From contig OX638333.1 of the NCBI GenBank assembly GCA_951812895.1, forward strand, positions 3,948,001-4,012,000: a DNA stretch of 64,000 nt, given 5' to 3'. The DNA comes from an uncultured Roseovarius sp. (GTDB lineage: Bacteria; Pseudomonadota; Alphaproteobacteria; Rhodobacterales; Rhodobacteraceae). The translations under genes were made by a program, and so were the position numbers. Each line of letters starts with the position of its first letter. The first letter of the stretch is position 1. Shown here piece after piece: positions 51,605-56,895 of this stretch. Under the pieces are notes generated by a model. It was not told the DNA's origin. It did not search any database and saw nothing but the letters and a program-made list of their open reading frames with translations.

Positions 51605-52381
51605 TTACCAACGGCCTGTAAAAGCGGTTCGCATCAGCATCAGACGGCTGCGAGCCGGGGACAATTCCAGCGAACCTGATGCGACATTTGAAGGCGCGCG
51701 TTCTGCCTGGCGCAATATGGTCGCACTTTGCCATAACGGGTTCAAGGCCGGGCGGGCAATTTTGGGCAATCGGGCGCAACCCTTACGCGCCTGCATCAAA
51801 GCGGCAATCCCCTCTTTTGCAAGGGTACGCACTGCATCAGGCGTACCTTCCACCAAAGGGATACGGCCCGAGCTTTCCAGTGCAGGTATTGCGCGCAGCC
51901 AGTTGGCAAGGCCAAGCGCGAAACCGGCCTGTCGCAGGGCGTCTTCAGGCAATTCGGTCGGACAAAGCGCGCGGGCGCTGGCCAAAAGAAGATTGGCCGA
52001 CGTATGATCGAGATATTCGCGAAAATGCTGCATATCCTCAAACGGATCGCGGTAGATGTCCCATCGTCGGGCCACAATCAACTGGTCTAGCAATCCTGCA
52101 CCTTCTGCGTCCAGCACACCCGCCAATGGTGTGGCCACCTCATGCCTCCGGACATCTCTACCGGTGCGGATTTCTTCCAAAACATCGCGCCACCATTGCA
52201 GCCGCATTTCCGCAATCATGCTTTCCTGCGTCAGCCAGGGTGCGCGCGCCACCTCAACGTTAAACGCGTAAATCGGAAACAGCACTGCACGCGCCTTTAC
52301 CGGTGCTGCCATTGCCGCCATAAACCTGTCCGGATCGCCGCGTTCAACGATCCCGGCACAGGCGGTCAGCGCCTCATCCAT
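51605..52381 (-). CDS. Squalene/phytoene-synthase-family protein (NDUFAF6-like)
   Basis: The 258-residue protein has the all-helical isoprenoid synthase fold, with EMRLQWWRDVLEEI (about 58-71) and DHTSANLLLASAR. It lacks the clear pair of Asp-rich DxxxD motifs of true phytoene synthases, and resembles the NDUFAF6 group, whose mitochondrial member helps to assemble complex I. It overlaps cimA by 8 bp in the cysS-cimA operon. Catalytic activity is doubtful. Confidence 0.8.
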   Translation of the reverse strand: MDEALTACAGIVERGDPDRFMAAMAAPVKARAVLFPIYAFNVEVARAPWLTQESMIAEMRLQWWRDVLEEIRTGRDVRRHEVATPLAGVLDAEGAGLLDQLIVARRWDIYRDPFEDMQHFREYLDHTSANLLLASARALCPTELPEDALRQAGFALGLANWLRAIPALESSGRIPLVEGTPDAVRTLAKEGIAALMQARKGCARLPKIARPALNPLWQSATILRQAERAPSNVASGSLELSPARSRLMLMRTAFTGRW

Positions 52382-53984
52382 CGCGCAGCAGCTTCCAGAT
52401 TATGGCATCCAGCAGCGCCTCAAATGACGCATCCACTATGTTGGGGGACACACCCACAGTTGACCATCGCCGTCCCTTGCCATCTTCGCTGTCGATGATC
52501 ACACGGGTCACGGCCTCTGTCCCGCCCTGGGTAATGCGCACCTTGAAATCCACAAGGCGCATATCTTCAATCGCATGCTGATAGGGGCCCAAATCCTTTG
52601 CCAGCGCCTTGGCCAATGCGTTCACCGGACCACGATCAGACCCTTGCTCATCCATTGACTCAGAAACCGACAGCGTTTTCTCTCCGTCAATTTTGACAAC
52701 AACAACGGCCTCGGAAAGCGAGATCATCTGGTTGTATTTGTTTTTGCGCCGCTCGACGGTGACTTTGTAACGCTTGACCTCAAAAAACTCTGGCAGCAGG
52801 CCCAACTCGCCCCGCGCCAAGAGTTCGAAAGACGCCTGTGCGCTGTCATAGGTATAGCCGCGATCCTCACGCTGTTTGATCTGTTCGAGAATGCGCGACA
52901 AGGCCGGGTCATCCGGTGCAACCTCTAACCCTGCTTCGGCCAAACGGCTGCGCAAATTGGACTGTCCAGCCTGATTTGACATCGGGATGATACGCGCATT
53001 TCCCACCATTTCCGGGTCAATATGTTCATAGGTGGTCGGATCTTTGAGAATGGCCGACGCATGCAACCCCGCCTTGTGAGCAAAGGCAGAGGCCCCGACA
53101 TAGGCCGATTGCCGCAGGGGCACGCGGTTTAGGATATCATCAAGTTGCCGACTGGCGCGACTTAACCCTTTGAGCGCATCCAGGCTAATCCCGGTTTCAT
53201 ACTGGCTGGCATAAGGCTCTTTAAGCAAAAGCGTCGGAATGATCGCTGTGAGGTTTGCATTTCCACAGCGTTCGCCAAGCCCGTTCAGCGTGCCCTGAAT
53301 CTGCCGCGCGCCCGCATCGACGGCTGCAAGGGAACCGGCAACTGCGTTTTCGGTGTCGTTGTGGGTATGAATCCCGAGGTTTTCCCCGGGGATACCCCCC
53401 GCAATCACGGCTTTGGTGATGTCATGGATTTCCTGCGGCAGCGTGCCACCATTGGTGTCGCATAATACGATCCAGCGGGCACCGGCCTCTAGAGCGGCAT
53501 GAAGACAAGAGAGCGCATAGTCCGGATTGGATTTGTATCCGTCAAAGAAATGCTCGGCATCAAACAGCGCCTCGCGCCCCTGCGCCACGATATGTTCGAT
53601 GGACCGGGCAATGTTATCCCGATTTTCGTCGAGCGTGATGCTGAGCGCGGTTTCGACATGGAAATCATGGGTTTTTCCCACCAGACACACGGCAGGCGTG
53701 CCCGCGTTCATCACCGCGGCCAGCACATCGTCATTCTCCGCCGACCGCCCGGTCCGTTTGGTCATGCCAAAGGCGGTCATGGTCGCCCGGGTATCGGGGG
53801 CGGCATCGAAAAACGCACTATCGGTGGGATTGGCCCCGGGCCAGCCGCCTTCGATATAGTCGAGGCCGAGGGCATCAAGAGCCTGTGCAATCTGCTGCTT
53901 TTCCGAGGTCGAAAACTGGACGCCCTGCGTTTGCTGACCGTCGCGCAGAGTGGTGTCGTAGAGGGAGAGTCGGGATTTGGTCAT
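52374..53984 (-). CDS. cimA: (R)-citramalate synthase
   Basis: CimA condenses pyruvate and acetyl-CoA to citramalate, the first step of a threonine-independent isoleucine route. The 536-residue protein has the DRE-TIM catalytic motif [15 protein letters not shown] (about 8-22), [11 protein letters not shown] (metal-binding histidines, about 203-213), [13 protein letters not shown], and the C-terminal LeuA allosteric domain (about 400-536), where isoleucine inhibition normally acts. Its start overlaps the cysS stop by 4 bp, so it is translated with cysS. Confidence 0.93.
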
Positions 53985-55348
53985 TGGAGTGCCTCAAGCT
54001 TGGTGGGGTCGAACTCCGGGCCGGGGACCAGTTCGACGCCGTCTTTGGACATTCGTACCTCGACACCGGCGTTAATTAGCGCTGCTTTGAGACGATCGAC
54101 TTCGGCGAAGTTTTTGGTTTGCATCGCAGCCTGTCTAACAGCCTGCAATTTGTCAGCAAGCAATCCAAGGCCTGAAGCTTTGGGCAACGCGGCCCACCCC
54201 GGCACCATATCTCCCATAAGGCCCAAAAATTGTAGAGTGTATCTTAAGGTGGAAATATCATCAGCCAATGAAAGCTGATGCAATTCGGCAATCGCACCCG
54301 CAGTATTCAAATCGTCTGACAAAGAATTCACAACAGCTTTGTAAGGTTCACCAGTTCCTACACCTTGCTCGGCTTGTGCATACCATCTTCTCAGCGTTTT
54401 CTCAGCCTCCCTCGCTTTCTCCGCTGTCCAGTCCATCGGTTTGCGGTAATGCGTGGACAGGAACACAAAGTGGATCACCTCGCCCGGGATGCCCTGATCG
54501 AGCAAATCCCGCACGGTAAAGAAATTGCCCAATGATTTGGACATCTTCTTGCCTTCGACCTGAAGCATCTCGTTGTGCATCCAGACATTGGCAAACCCGT
54601 GGCCCATGCAGCGTGACTGAGCAATCTCATTCTCATGATGCGGGAATTGCAGGTCATTGCCGCCGCCATGGATGTCAAAGCTTTCGCCCAGCAGTTCATA
54701 AGCCATGGCCGAGCATTCGATGTGCCAGCCGGGGCGACCCCTGCCCCATGGGCTGTCCCAGCCGGGTTGGGCTTCGTCCGAGGGTTTCCACAGCACAAAA
54801 TCCATCGGGTCTTCTTTATACGGTGCCACCTCAACCCGGGCACCGGCGATCATGTCGTCAACACTGCGACCAGACAACGCTCCATAGTCTTTATAAGACC
54901 GCACCCGGAACAGGACATGGCCTTCAACGGCGTAGGCATGGCCGCGTTCGATCAGTGCAGAGGTCATCGCAACCATAGGCGCGATCCATTCGGTCGCGCG
55001 GGGCATGGCATCCGGTTCCAGAGCACCCAATGCGCCCATATCGTCCAGAAACCACTGTGTTGTCTCATTGGTTATGTCACTGATCGACCGGCCACTTTCG
55101 GCGGCGCGTGCGTTGATCTTGTCATCCACATCGGTGAAATTGCGGGCATATGTGACATGGTCCGTACCAAACACATGGCGCAACAGCCGGTAGAGCACGT
55201 CAAACACCACAACAGGCCGGGCATTGCCCAGATGCGCGCGGTCATACACCGTGGGGCCACAGACATACATCCGCACATTGTCCGGATCGATGGGGGTAAA
55301 ATCCTCTTTTTTCCGGGATTTGGTGTTGTGCAGTCTGATCGTCGTCAT
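53981..55348 (-). CDS. cysS: Cysteinyl-tRNA synthetase
   Basis: The 455-residue class I synthetase charges tRNA-Cys. Class signatures are [17 protein letters not shown] (about 28-44; HIGH-type HLGN with the zinc Cys), the zinc/substrate site [10 protein letters not shown], and [11 protein letters not shown] (KMSKS loop). The start ATG at 55348 is preceded by GAGG 5 bp upstream. The gene is preceded by a short Ile/Cys leader ORF and a promoter, and followed by cimA through a 4-bp overlap. Confidence 0.96.
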
Positions 55349-55372
55349 AAGGTCCTCGCGCGCGTGATCCGC

Positions 55373-55436
55373 GGCGGGCTTATCAACTTAACGTCTTGGA
55401 TGGAATAGATGACCGGGCCCGCCTGAGATTTCTCAG
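55373..55436 (-). promoter_or_regulatory. Candidate alternative RNA stems in the cysS leader
   Basis: A hairpin CTGAGA/TCTCAG (55423-55436) spans the leader-ORF stop codon, and next to it the minus-strand GGCGGGC (55417-55423) can pair with GCCCGCC (55373-55379), which ends about 25 nt before the cysS start. Both share base 55423, so they compete. Another stem, AATGCA/TGCATT (55442-55447, 55463-55468), lies inside the leader coding region. No U-run is visible, so control of translation or Rho access is more likely than intrinsic termination. Confidence 0.45.
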
Positions 55437-55474
55437 TGGGTAATGCAGCAGATAATGATGGTTGCATTGGTCAT
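55433..55474 (-). CDS. Leader peptide MTNATIIICCITH upstream of cysS-cimA
   Basis: A 13-codon ORF starts at ATG 55474 and ends with TGA at 55433. It contains ATC ATT ATC (Ile x3), TGC TGC (Cys x2) and ATT (Ile) in a row, codons for the amino acids handled by the next two genes (cysS, cimA). The ATG sits exactly where a predicted promoter would start transcription, so it would be read from a leaderless mRNA, as known for trpL in Sinorhizobium. An in-frame ATG at 55486 would add four residues but lies in the -10 box. Function by amino-acid attenuation is inference. Confidence 0.65.
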   Translation of the reverse strand: MTNATIIICCITH

Positions 55475-55481
55475 GACGGCG

Positions 55482-55510
55482 AACATAGGCAGGTGGCAGG
55501 GCCCGGTCAA
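55482..55510 (-). promoter_or_regulatory. Promoter of the cysS-cimA operon, start at the leader ATG
   Basis: Minus-strand -35 TTGACC (55505-55510) and -10 TATGTT (55482-55487) have a 17-bp spacer; seven bases after the -10 box comes the A of the leader ATG (55474). An inverted repeat GGGCCCGGTC / GACCGGGCCC (55499-55508, 55411-55420) has one arm in the -35 region. Confidence 0.65.
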
Positions 55511-55534
55511 TAGCTCTGACCGGAACCGTATGGT

Positions 55535-55912
55535 TCAGTCAAAAAAGTCGTGATCAGTGCGCAAGGCACAGCGATTGCCATCCGGGTCCATAAACTCTGC
55601 TGTCCGCCCCCATGAGTAATCAAACTCTTCAACAACCACACCATGGGATCGCAGGTGCGCAACCGATGCTGCCAGATCATTGGTGTTGAGACGTAGTTTA
55701 GAAGGGCATTCCTGGGGGGATTTGAGTTTCGCTGCAGTAGTGCCGCCGGTTTCCACCATCAGATAGGCACCACTCAGATCAAAACAGATCAGCCCGTCCC
55801 TATCCGTACCTTTCTCAAAAAGCACCTTGAGGCCGATCACATCCCGATAAAACGCCCGGCACGCCGGGTAGTCGCCCGTATTTAAAATAAAGCCGTAACG
55901 CGAAATTTCCAT
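55535..55912 (-). CDS. VOC-superfamily (glyoxalase-like) protein
   Basis: The 125-residue protein has the paired beta-alpha-beta-beta-beta modules of the vicinal-oxygen-chelate fold: SRYGFILNTGDYPACRAFYRD type start (key elements FILNTGDYPACRAFYRDV and GLKVLFEKG) and SWGRTAEFMDPDGNRCAL at the end. The usual first His is replaced (ILNT), so metal binding may differ. It follows the SoxR-box promoter VOC gene by 57 bp on the same strand. Confidence 0.82.
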   Translation of the reverse strand: MEISRYGFILNTGDYPACRAFYRDVIGLKVLFEKGTDRDGLICFDLSGAYLMVETGGTTAAKLKSPQECPSKLRLNTNDLAASVAHLRSHGVVVEEFDYSWGRTAEFMDPDGNRCALRTDHDFFD

Positions 55913-55969
55913 GATGCATTCCTTTTGTTGGGAACAGCCAATTCTAATGACCGGCTGCGCCCATTCGAT

Positions 55970-56344
55970 TCAGCTGTAATTCACAACCTCAAACTCGATC
56001 CCATCAGGTCCGTCGAAATAGAACCGAAGGCCGGGTTCGTAATCGCCGTGACTGTGTGTTTCATACCCGGCGGCCTTGACCCGTGCTTCTGTCGCATCGA
56101 TGTCGTCCACAACTACACCTACGTGATTGAGCCCGCCAATTCGGCCATAGGTATTCCCGAGCTTCTTAAGCTCTTTATTCGGTGCATAAAGCGCAAGATA
56201 GCTGTCCGCATCACCCACGTGCACGGTATGCCCATTGTCCTTCGCTTCACCTTCCCAACGAATATGCCAGCCAAACAAATTACACAGGATCGCAGCGCTT
56301 TCCTCGGGTTTCGGCACGGTGATGTTTACGTGTTCCAGATGCAT
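55970..56344 (-). CDS. VOC-superfamily (glyoxalase-like) protein under a SoxR-type promoter
   Basis: The 124-residue protein has VOC metal-site positions: His5 (HLEHVNITV), the second-module LNHVGVVVDD and the terminal Glu in GIEFEVVNYS. VOC proteins include glyoxalases, dioxygenases and resistance proteins. It is divergent from soxR and its promoter carries a SoxR box; GGAAGGAA precedes the start. It and the next VOC gene form a probable operon. Substrate unknown. Confidence 0.85.
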   Translation of the reverse strand: MHLEHVNITVPKPEESAAILCNLFGWHIRWEGEAKDNGHTVHVGDADSYLALYAPNKELKKLGNTYGRIGGLNHVGVVVDDIDATEARVKAAGYETHSHGDYEPGLRFYFDGPDGIEFEVVNYS

Positions 56345-56379
56345 GTTGTTTCCTTCCGGATTGAAATTTAATGACTTTG

Positions 56380-56410
56380 AATGTAGTACTTCAAGTTAAC
56401 TTGAGTTCAA
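56380..56410 (-). promoter_or_regulatory. SoxR-type promoter of the VOC genes (19-bp spacer)
   Basis: Minus-strand -35 TTGAAC (56405-56410) and -10 TACATT (56380-56385) are 19 bp apart, the overlong spacing typical of promoters that MerR-family activators such as SoxR open by bending DNA. The SoxR palindrome fills the spacer. Confidence 0.75.
56389..56406. promoter_or_regulatory. SoxR box
   Basis: CTTCAAGTTAACTTGAGT matches the enterobacterial SoxR box CCTCAAGTTAACTTGAGG at 16 of 18 positions, with the full core TCAAGTTAACTTGA. It lies in the 80-bp region between soxR and the divergent VOC genes. Confidence 0.85.
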
Positions 56411-56424
56411 TATGGAAAATATTC

Positions 56425-56895
56425 ATGCAAAACAATTCATTACGAAATAGAGGTCTCTCAATAGGATATGTTTCAGAGCGTACAGGCCTGTCTGTATCAG
56501 CCATCCGCTACTACGAGGACGAACAACTGGTGCACCCCGATCGCAATGAAAGCGGGCACCGCCGTTATGCCCGGTCCGACATCAGGCGCCTCTCTTTTGT
56601 GATGATTGCACAGGGTTTGGGGTTTTCCATCTCGGACATTCGCAATGCCTTGGCTACCTTGCCCGAACACAGGACGCCAAACAAAGGGGATTGGGCCAGG
56701 ATTTCGCGCAATTTCGGCAGGGTTCTGGATGAGCGTATTTCACAGATGCAGCTGCTCCGCGAAAAACTGGACGGATGCATTGGGTGCGGATGTCTGTCGC
56801 TTAAAACCTGCGGACTTTATAACGCGCGTGATCGCGCGGCACGTCGCGGCGCCGGGCCGCGCTATCTGTTGGGGGACAACAGCGAAACGGTGTGA
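56425..56895 (+). CDS. soxR: Redox-sensitive transcriptional activator SoxR
   Basis: SoxR is a MerR-family dimer with a [2Fe-2S] cluster that senses redox-active compounds. Start at 56425 (MQNNSLRNRGLSIGYV) is chosen over an ATG at 56371 that lies in the promoter. The 156-residue protein has the winged-helix N-terminus (SIGYVSERTGLSVSAIRYYE, about 12-31), a dimerisation helix, and the SoxR cluster motif CIGCGCLSLKTC (C-x2-C-x-C-x5-C). The SoxR box lies immediately upstream. Confidence 0.95.
   Translation: MQNNSLRNRGLSIGYVSERTGLSVSAIRYYEDEQLVHPDRNESGHRRYARSDIRRLSFVMIAQGLGFSISDIRNALATLPEHRTPNKGDWARISRNFGRVLDERISQMQLLREKLDGCIGCGCLSLKTCGLYNARDRAARRGAGPRYLLGDNSETV

Follow-up and report, generated by a model that had tools for sequence, protein, structure and literature searches.

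A leader ORF with isoleucine and cysteine codons ahead of cysS-cimA in Rhodobacterales: a candidate attenuator for two unrelated amino acids

Control codons for several amino acids can occur in one leader peptide: enterobacterial thrL reads Thr and Ile, and ilvL reads Ile, Val, and Leu, each within one branched pathway. In Sinorhizobium meliloti, the trpL/rnTrpL attenuator is described, in the part of the report that deals with it, as having a leaderless leader ORF of 14 amino acids (PMC10117765). For actinobacterial cys operon leaders, the passages of another report that concern Cys describe short ORFs in which Cys codon runs lie close to the stop (PMC1262725). The element closest to the locus studied here is uORFC-8-2, which was published in 2021 with 145 examples upstream of cysS in Rhodobacterales; according to the section devoted to it, it has a conserved AUG, tandem Cys codons usually at codons 14–15, and two stems, the first of which contains the Cys codons, followed by a U run at the 3' end, and it is presumed to be a transcription attenuator (PMC8632094). 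The word isoleucine has no occurrence in the main text of that paper, and its uORFC-8-2 section mentions neither Ile, cimA, a promoter, a leaderless start, nor another order (PMC8632094). A search of the open-licence literature by title and start of abstract found no paper joining a Cys leader of cysS with Ile or cimA.

We analyzed a 64,000-nt stretch of DNA from an uncultured Roseovarius sp. (hereafter, the window), in which a short ORF lies ahead of cysS and cimA.

55433..55474, minus strand: leader ORF MTNATIIICCITH, with control codons Ile-Ile-Ile-Cys-Cys-Ile
55353..55357, minus strand: Shine–Dalgarno sequence of cysS, GAGGA (from the sequence)
53981..55348, minus strand: cysS, cysteine--tRNA ligase (NCBIfam equivalog TIGR00435, 416.7 bits, cut-off 340)
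52374..53984, minus strand: cimA, citramalate synthase, for the isoleucine precursor (NCBIfam equivalog TIGR00977, 588 bits, cut-off 450)
51605..52381, minus strand: third gene, squalene/phytoene synthase family (PF00494), overlapping the cimA end

The original prediction had placed a leader ORF with consecutive Ile and Cys codons ahead of a cysS-cimA pair overlapping by 4 bp. Re-reading gave the same sequence and coordinates: the minus-strand codons ATG ACC AAT GCA ACC ATC ATT ATC TGC TGC ATT ACC CAC TGA (55474..55433) encode MTNATIIICCITH followed by a stop, Cys occupies codons 9–10 of the 13-codon ORF, and a gap of 84 nt separates the ORF end from the cysS start. The overlap (ATGA) was likewise confirmed, and both genes were identified by equivalog models over their cut-offs. 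Since the squalene/phytoene synthase family gene overlaps the cimA end, the unit may comprise three genes; the HpnD model scored this gene far under its cut-off. The window also contains two adjacent glyoxalase-fold genes, from which the gene of a MerR-family regulator diverges (55535–56344, minus strand, and 56371–56895, plus strand). The regulator has a CxxCxC cluster near its end and is presumably SoxR-like.

Comparison of sequences indicates that the leader ORF is not a chance frame. Among 574 short ATG ORFs in the window (9–24 amino acids, both strands), the leader frame, counted with two nested starts, is alone in having at least five Ile/Cys codons within the last 12. The pattern Ile-Ile-Cys-Cys-Ile was found three times in the window's own genome; one copy is the leader, and the other two belong to longer open frames, 67 and 124 codons long in the extracted stretches, with no short leader frame. 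In the family, we read 160 cysS loci (from 110 of 117 genomes with a match, a further 49 of 60 genomes, and one more) and scored the highest-ranking short ORF in the 450 nt ahead of cysS, with a threshold of at least 4. This threshold was reached in 136 of the 159 loci with upstream sequence, against 13/795 dinucleotide shuffles and 2/159 opposite strands, by a score that selects Ile and Cys combined without demanding both and in relatives that are not statistically independent, a limit that affects all family counts given here. On these grounds, chance was rejected as the origin of the ORF. Loci L171, L351, L410, and L211 have too little upstream sequence and hence no leader score, and L185, whose ORF is 355 nt away, is inside the count of 136 (and that of 128 below) and excluded from the 135 aligned leaders. 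Named relatives in the family include Roseovarius, Ruegeria, and Sulfitobacter; we take the order of these and the other relatives bearing the published element to be Rhodobacterales. Two other readings of the stretch were discarded. An Rfam covariance-model scan of window positions 55000–56000 gave 0 matches up to E = 1, T-box included, which rules out a T-box or other Rfam family, and an alternative frame of the conserved stretch (His/Tyr/Leu) was rejected by inspection because ATC/ATT exchanges, synonymous for the leader, would change the residues of that frame; nor was a shared start seen for it.

Conservation of the Ile/Cys codons in relatives had been set beforehand as the test of the prediction, and they are conserved: besides the scores above, both amino acids are present in 134 of the 135 aligned family leaders. 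The exception is a linked relative (L182), whose leader, MNAPNRIIGIIIGG, has Ile and no Cys. Counted from the stop codon, 127 leaders have Ile at −3 and 104 have it at −7; for Cys, the numbers are 91 at −5 and 102 at −4. Ile and Cys make up 26% and 18% of the leader codons, compared with 4% and 1% in cysS. The order and number of Ile and Cys codons differ among family leaders, while the C-terminal residues are kept; a Ruegeria pomeroyi locus (from a strain other than DSS-3; L342), for example, has the leader MTRTIRIIICCITR. Both Ile codons are frequent upstream (ATC/ATT: 32/32 at −6, 41/61 at −7, and 53/18 at −8). ATT is nearly fixed at −3 (121 of the 127 Ile codons), and therefore some RNA constraint probably acts there too.

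Within the family, presence of the leader goes with linkage of the two genes: it was found in 128/147 loci with linked cysS-cimA and in 1/5 unlinked loci (Fisher p 0.002, with loci that are not independent). The single unlinked locus with a leader (L073) has the Cys-rich MDWICCLCRA, and the other four have none. In three of the five unlinked genomes (G105, G047, and G011), matches to cimA reached 34–35% at most and were taken for leuA; in the remaining two, cimA lies elsewhere. No Ile leader was found upstream of two stand-alone cimA loci of the family (L189 and L190; genomes G157 and G045). Among 80 named records, which overlap the family genome set and are not a separate sample, the leader was present in 73/76 linked loci with upstream sequence and 0/2 unlinked loci (Rhodovulum bhavnagarense and Roseovarius autotrophicus). 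As 19 of the 147 linked family loci fall under a score of 4, the leader is dispensable; by eye, three of these loci (L009, L163, and L183) perhaps have worn leaders.

The two genes are apart in another alphaproteobacterial order, represented here by G321. We searched 40 genomes of this order and took 30 cimA and 30 cysS loci, one cysS locus being without upstream sequence; the partner gene was absent from every locus taken. Upstream of stand-alone cimA, an ORF with at least three Ile codons was present in 30/30 loci versus 45/1200 shuffles, and upstream of stand-alone cysS, an ORF with at least two Cys codons (e.g., MTCRCCRKNTTESPA) in 22/29 versus 269/1160, the genomes being related and the counts therefore not independent. 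None of the Ile-rich ORFs before cimA (e.g., MNPAHSIIQGLIISG and MNIINAIIIKGLIISG) has Cys. Conversely, Cys was not enriched before stand-alone cimA in this order (at least two Cys in 2/30; shuffles, 182/1200), and Ile was not enriched before stand-alone cysS (at least three Ile in 2/29; shuffles, 95/1160). Restricting the search further, to 20 codons and 300 nt, left 28/30 for Ile at cimA and 14/29 for Cys at cysS. The predicted dual sensing of Ile and Cys for cysS-cimA thus gains support from the split genes, which carry Ile-rich, Cys-free ORFs (cimA) or often Cys-rich ORFs without Ile runs (cysS), and the comparison suggests that the Ile codons of the joint leader serve cimA. To our knowledge, the Ile-rich, Cys-free leader of stand-alone cimA has no description; a literature search on citramalate synthase leader peptides did not find it. 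The ORF often ends IIxGLIISG (L266, L267, and L376–L403). At L406–L408, L419, L421, and L424–L426, the ORFs upstream of cysS have about 28–30 codons with a common TCCRT core and four to eight Cys, and are possibly a second type of Cys leader.

Other families of the class gave a more mixed picture. Outside the family, 93 cysS loci were scored, namely, 87 from the class sample and six added later (L200–L204 and L265). Among the linked loci, 14/46 had an upstream ORF at p ≤ 0.01, or 9/41 without the later-added loci, which were chosen since their families already showed a candidate and are not a neutral sample. Thirteen of these 14 leaders have at least two Ile and at least one Cys (e.g., MKTAATIWCICCTIIIS and MTRCQNQICQICIGCICCQSIICG); seven of the outside-family Ile-plus-Cys leaders come from two families, and five of these seven are later-added loci. 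The other 32 of the 46 had no recognizable leader at p 0.01. The unlinked loci gave 1/43 at p ≤ 0.01 (L121, Cys-rich), where the genomes scored as unlinked include six with cimA 0.9–2.2 kb further down (G215, G342, G274, G285, G265, and G218); in G278, a second cysS lies directly ahead of cimA. In a family in which cysS has no cimA behind it (f4), upstream ORFs end CPCRCA, RWCCA, and LCCCA (shuffle p 0.007, 0.14, and 0.06, respectively). Among 25 cimA loci of the class genomes not scored as linked, seven of them near a cysS, a clear Ile leader was found only in L266 and L267, both from the G321 order. In some other alphaproteobacteria (L142, L206, L225, and L241), the frame just before cysS has an LLPLIG- or LVLIG-like end, which presumably recalls gltX, and two tRNA-ligase genes may stand in a row there.

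Two candidate promoters were recognized around the leader.

55505..55510, minus strand: P1 −35 element TTGACC (TTG[AGC]C is found 34–37 nt before the leader ATG in 90/135 relatives; none in 41)
55482..55487, minus strand: P1 −10 element TATGTT, 17 nt past the −35 element (from the sequence)
55400..55405, minus strand: candidate P2 −35-like element TTCCAT (from the sequence, putative)
55377..55382, minus strand: candidate P2 −10-like element TAAGCC, 17 nt past TTCCAT and part of GTTGCTAAGCCC

Because the −10 element of P1 ends 7 nt before the leader AUG, the predicted transcript start lies at the AUG or within about 1 nt of it, so the mRNA would be leaderless. A Shine–Dalgarno-like motif precedes the leader ATG in 20/135 relatives, versus 115/135 for cysS. 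With up to two mismatches, GTTGCTAAGCCC occurs in 90/135 loci with the leader, in 9/24 without it, and in 0/159 simple (single-base) shuffles; its retention in loci lacking the leader ORF suggests that P2 is a candidate promoter making the leader dispensable.

The RNA of the leader region can form three helices, of which T and B share bases and are mutually exclusive.

55469..55474, minus strand: helix A, 5' arm AUGACC (the first six bases of the ORF), pairing with 55409–55414
55409..55414, minus strand: helix A, 3' arm GGUCAU, the segment after GCGGGC (fold)
55418..55440, minus strand: helix T, hairpin over the stop codon (CCC.CUGAG / CUCAG..GGG; fold and chimera test)
55417..55423, minus strand: helix B, 5' arm GGCGGGC, overlapping helix T
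55373..55379, minus strand: helix B, 3' arm GCCCGCC (sequence and chimera test)
55398..55408, minus strand: pyrimidine-rich tail after helix A, candidate termination zone, with no clean U run in the window

Arm-swap and chimera fold tests on 123 non-identical loci, with 2000 shuffled pairings, indicate that the helices around the leader covary. No swap was as good as the native pairing of helix A (z = −12.1, 0/2000), while a mid-ORF control gave no pairing signal (354/2000 as good). Helix T reached a z of about −9 at five cut points in chimera folds with no shared bases (0/2000). A narrow duplex test of helix T with separate windows gave z = −2.1 (40/2000, n = 135), and z = −1.4 (165/2000, n = 68) without duplicates; a duplex test with overlapping windows could be inflated. 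For helix B, no shuffled pairing was as good in the chimera test (z = −7.9, 0/2000), and the plain duplex test was weak (z = −1.9, 54/2000). RNAalifold on a gapped 261-column MAFFT alignment returned no structure, the single-sequence fold was unremarkable (z −1.8), and the register of helix A shifts between lineages. The 10 nt after the 3' arm of helix A contain 43% T and 9% G in the 135 relatives, compared with 23% T and 26% G over the 120 nt ahead of cysS, and several relatives have U-rich tails. The 3' arm of helix B is transcribed after the tail; therefore, helix B is no simple antiterminator. An inverted repeat, GACCGGGCCC with GGGCCCGGTC, dominates the fold of the whole intergenic region and was rejected as part of a switch because its left arm lies within P1, upstream of the predicted transcript start.

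Taken together, we consider it likely that the locus encodes a transcription attenuator that works through the ribosome and has two inputs, Ile and Cys; its mRNA would be nearly leaderless, and a second promoter would serve as a bypass. P1 would start the mRNA almost at the leader AUG. When both Ile-tRNA and Cys-tRNA are charged, the ribosome would complete the leader and depart; the start of the ORF and the segment past the stop would then form helix A, enclosing helix T, and transcription by RNA polymerase would end within the pyrimidine-rich tail. If one of the two tRNAs is uncharged, the ribosome would stall on the Ile or Cys codons and mask arms of helix A, helix T, or both, so that the polymerase could continue into cysS-cimA; CysS would charge tRNA-Cys, and CimA would feed isoleucine synthesis. 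P2, beside cysS, would supply basal expression. A more specific version, which we put forward only tentatively, assigns each kind of codon in a two-input switch its own helix, and supposes that such leaders acquire or shed codons when genes enter or leave the operon. A stall at the Ile codons (−6 to −8) would still cover the 5' arm of helix A, a stall at the Cys-Cys-Ile codons (−5 to −3) would cover helix T, and a shortage of either amino acid would open one common terminator.

Dual sensing might also work through translation or Rho access, with the helix switch exposing the cysS start or blocking Rho. The tail in the window, pyrimidine-rich and with no clean U run, would suit this reading, as would helix B, which is exclusive with T and comes within about 15 nt of the cysS Shine–Dalgarno sequence; nevertheless, transcripts from the candidate P2 would presumably be without the switch, and termination is favored by the U-rich tails of several relatives and by the model in the published section on the element (PMC8632094), so that we regard this reading as rather unlikely. 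An attenuator of cysS that responds to Cys only, with the Ile codons as filler or as an RNA-level constraint, appears improbable. It accords with the tandem Cys codons, the conserved hallmark in that same section (PMC8632094), and the near-fixed ATT at −3 does suggest some RNA constraint, but Ile is conserved as much as Cys in the leaders, the Ile codons at −6 to −8 switch between ATC and ATT, the linked relative L182 has an Ile leader without Cys, and Ile runs stand before stand-alone cimA (30/30) and not before stand-alone cysS (2/29) in the G321 order.

The varying order and number of Ile and Cys codons, the first codons following helix A, and the content following the downstream genes are all as expected of control codons; they speak against an arrest peptide or small functional peptide, in which the nascent chain would matter rather than tRNA charging and for which the conserved C-terminal residues could be cited, and we see very little probability in it. 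The roughly 13% of linked family loci without a leader (19/147) would sit well with chance or non-coding conservation, an explanation already refuted by conservation, codon content, the helix tests, and the split-gene comparison, and its probability is negligible. The dual-input attenuator would make the locus a candidate OR gate whose inputs are two unrelated amino acids, and it predicts that isoleucine starvation should raise the tRNA-Cys ligase. The codons of the leaders appear to track the genes behind them: linked genes have leaders with both amino acids, and separated genes, in another order, have leaders that carry mainly one of the two. This joining and splitting of genes is a natural experiment for the control-codon idea.

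Among known systems, thrL and ilvL resemble this leader in having control codons for several amino acids; unlike there, one leader here precedes two unrelated genes, one for a tRNA ligase and one for a biosynthetic enzyme, and the two kinds of codon tend to separate along with the genes. The statement in the original prediction that known attenuation leaders serve one pathway needs the qualification that thrL and ilvL read several amino acids, if within a single pathway. Attenuators of the trp/his/ilv type have control codons matching the downstream genes, as appears to be the case here; of their terminator and alternative pairing, helices A, T, and B are supported, with T and B sharing bases, and the 3' arm of B lies beyond the tail. 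The actinobacterial cys leaders share the Cys run close to the stop of a short leader ORF and differ in their genes and phylum; in the passages on Cys, Ile is not mentioned, and a conserved terminator hairpin was not seen in them (PMC1262725). Like the described part of trpL/rnTrpL, the locus has a candidate leaderless leader ORF in an alphaproteobacterial attenuator, whereas the S. meliloti system reads tryptophan and is unrelated in sequence (PMC10117765). The leader in the window is the published uORFC-8-2 element: it lies upstream of cysS in Rhodobacterales and has the AUG and tandem Cys codons given in the section on that element, although at codons 9–10 rather than 14–15, and, compared with the two stems and U run described there, helices A and T were found here with a pyrimidine-rich tail lacking a clean U run (PMC8632094). 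Since the cysS attenuator was already in print in 2021, the Ile/cimA half alone of the original prediction is new. Unlike in the published section, the Ile codons here are tied to cimA (PMC8632094), and the cysteine-only assignment is thereby extended to isoleucine.
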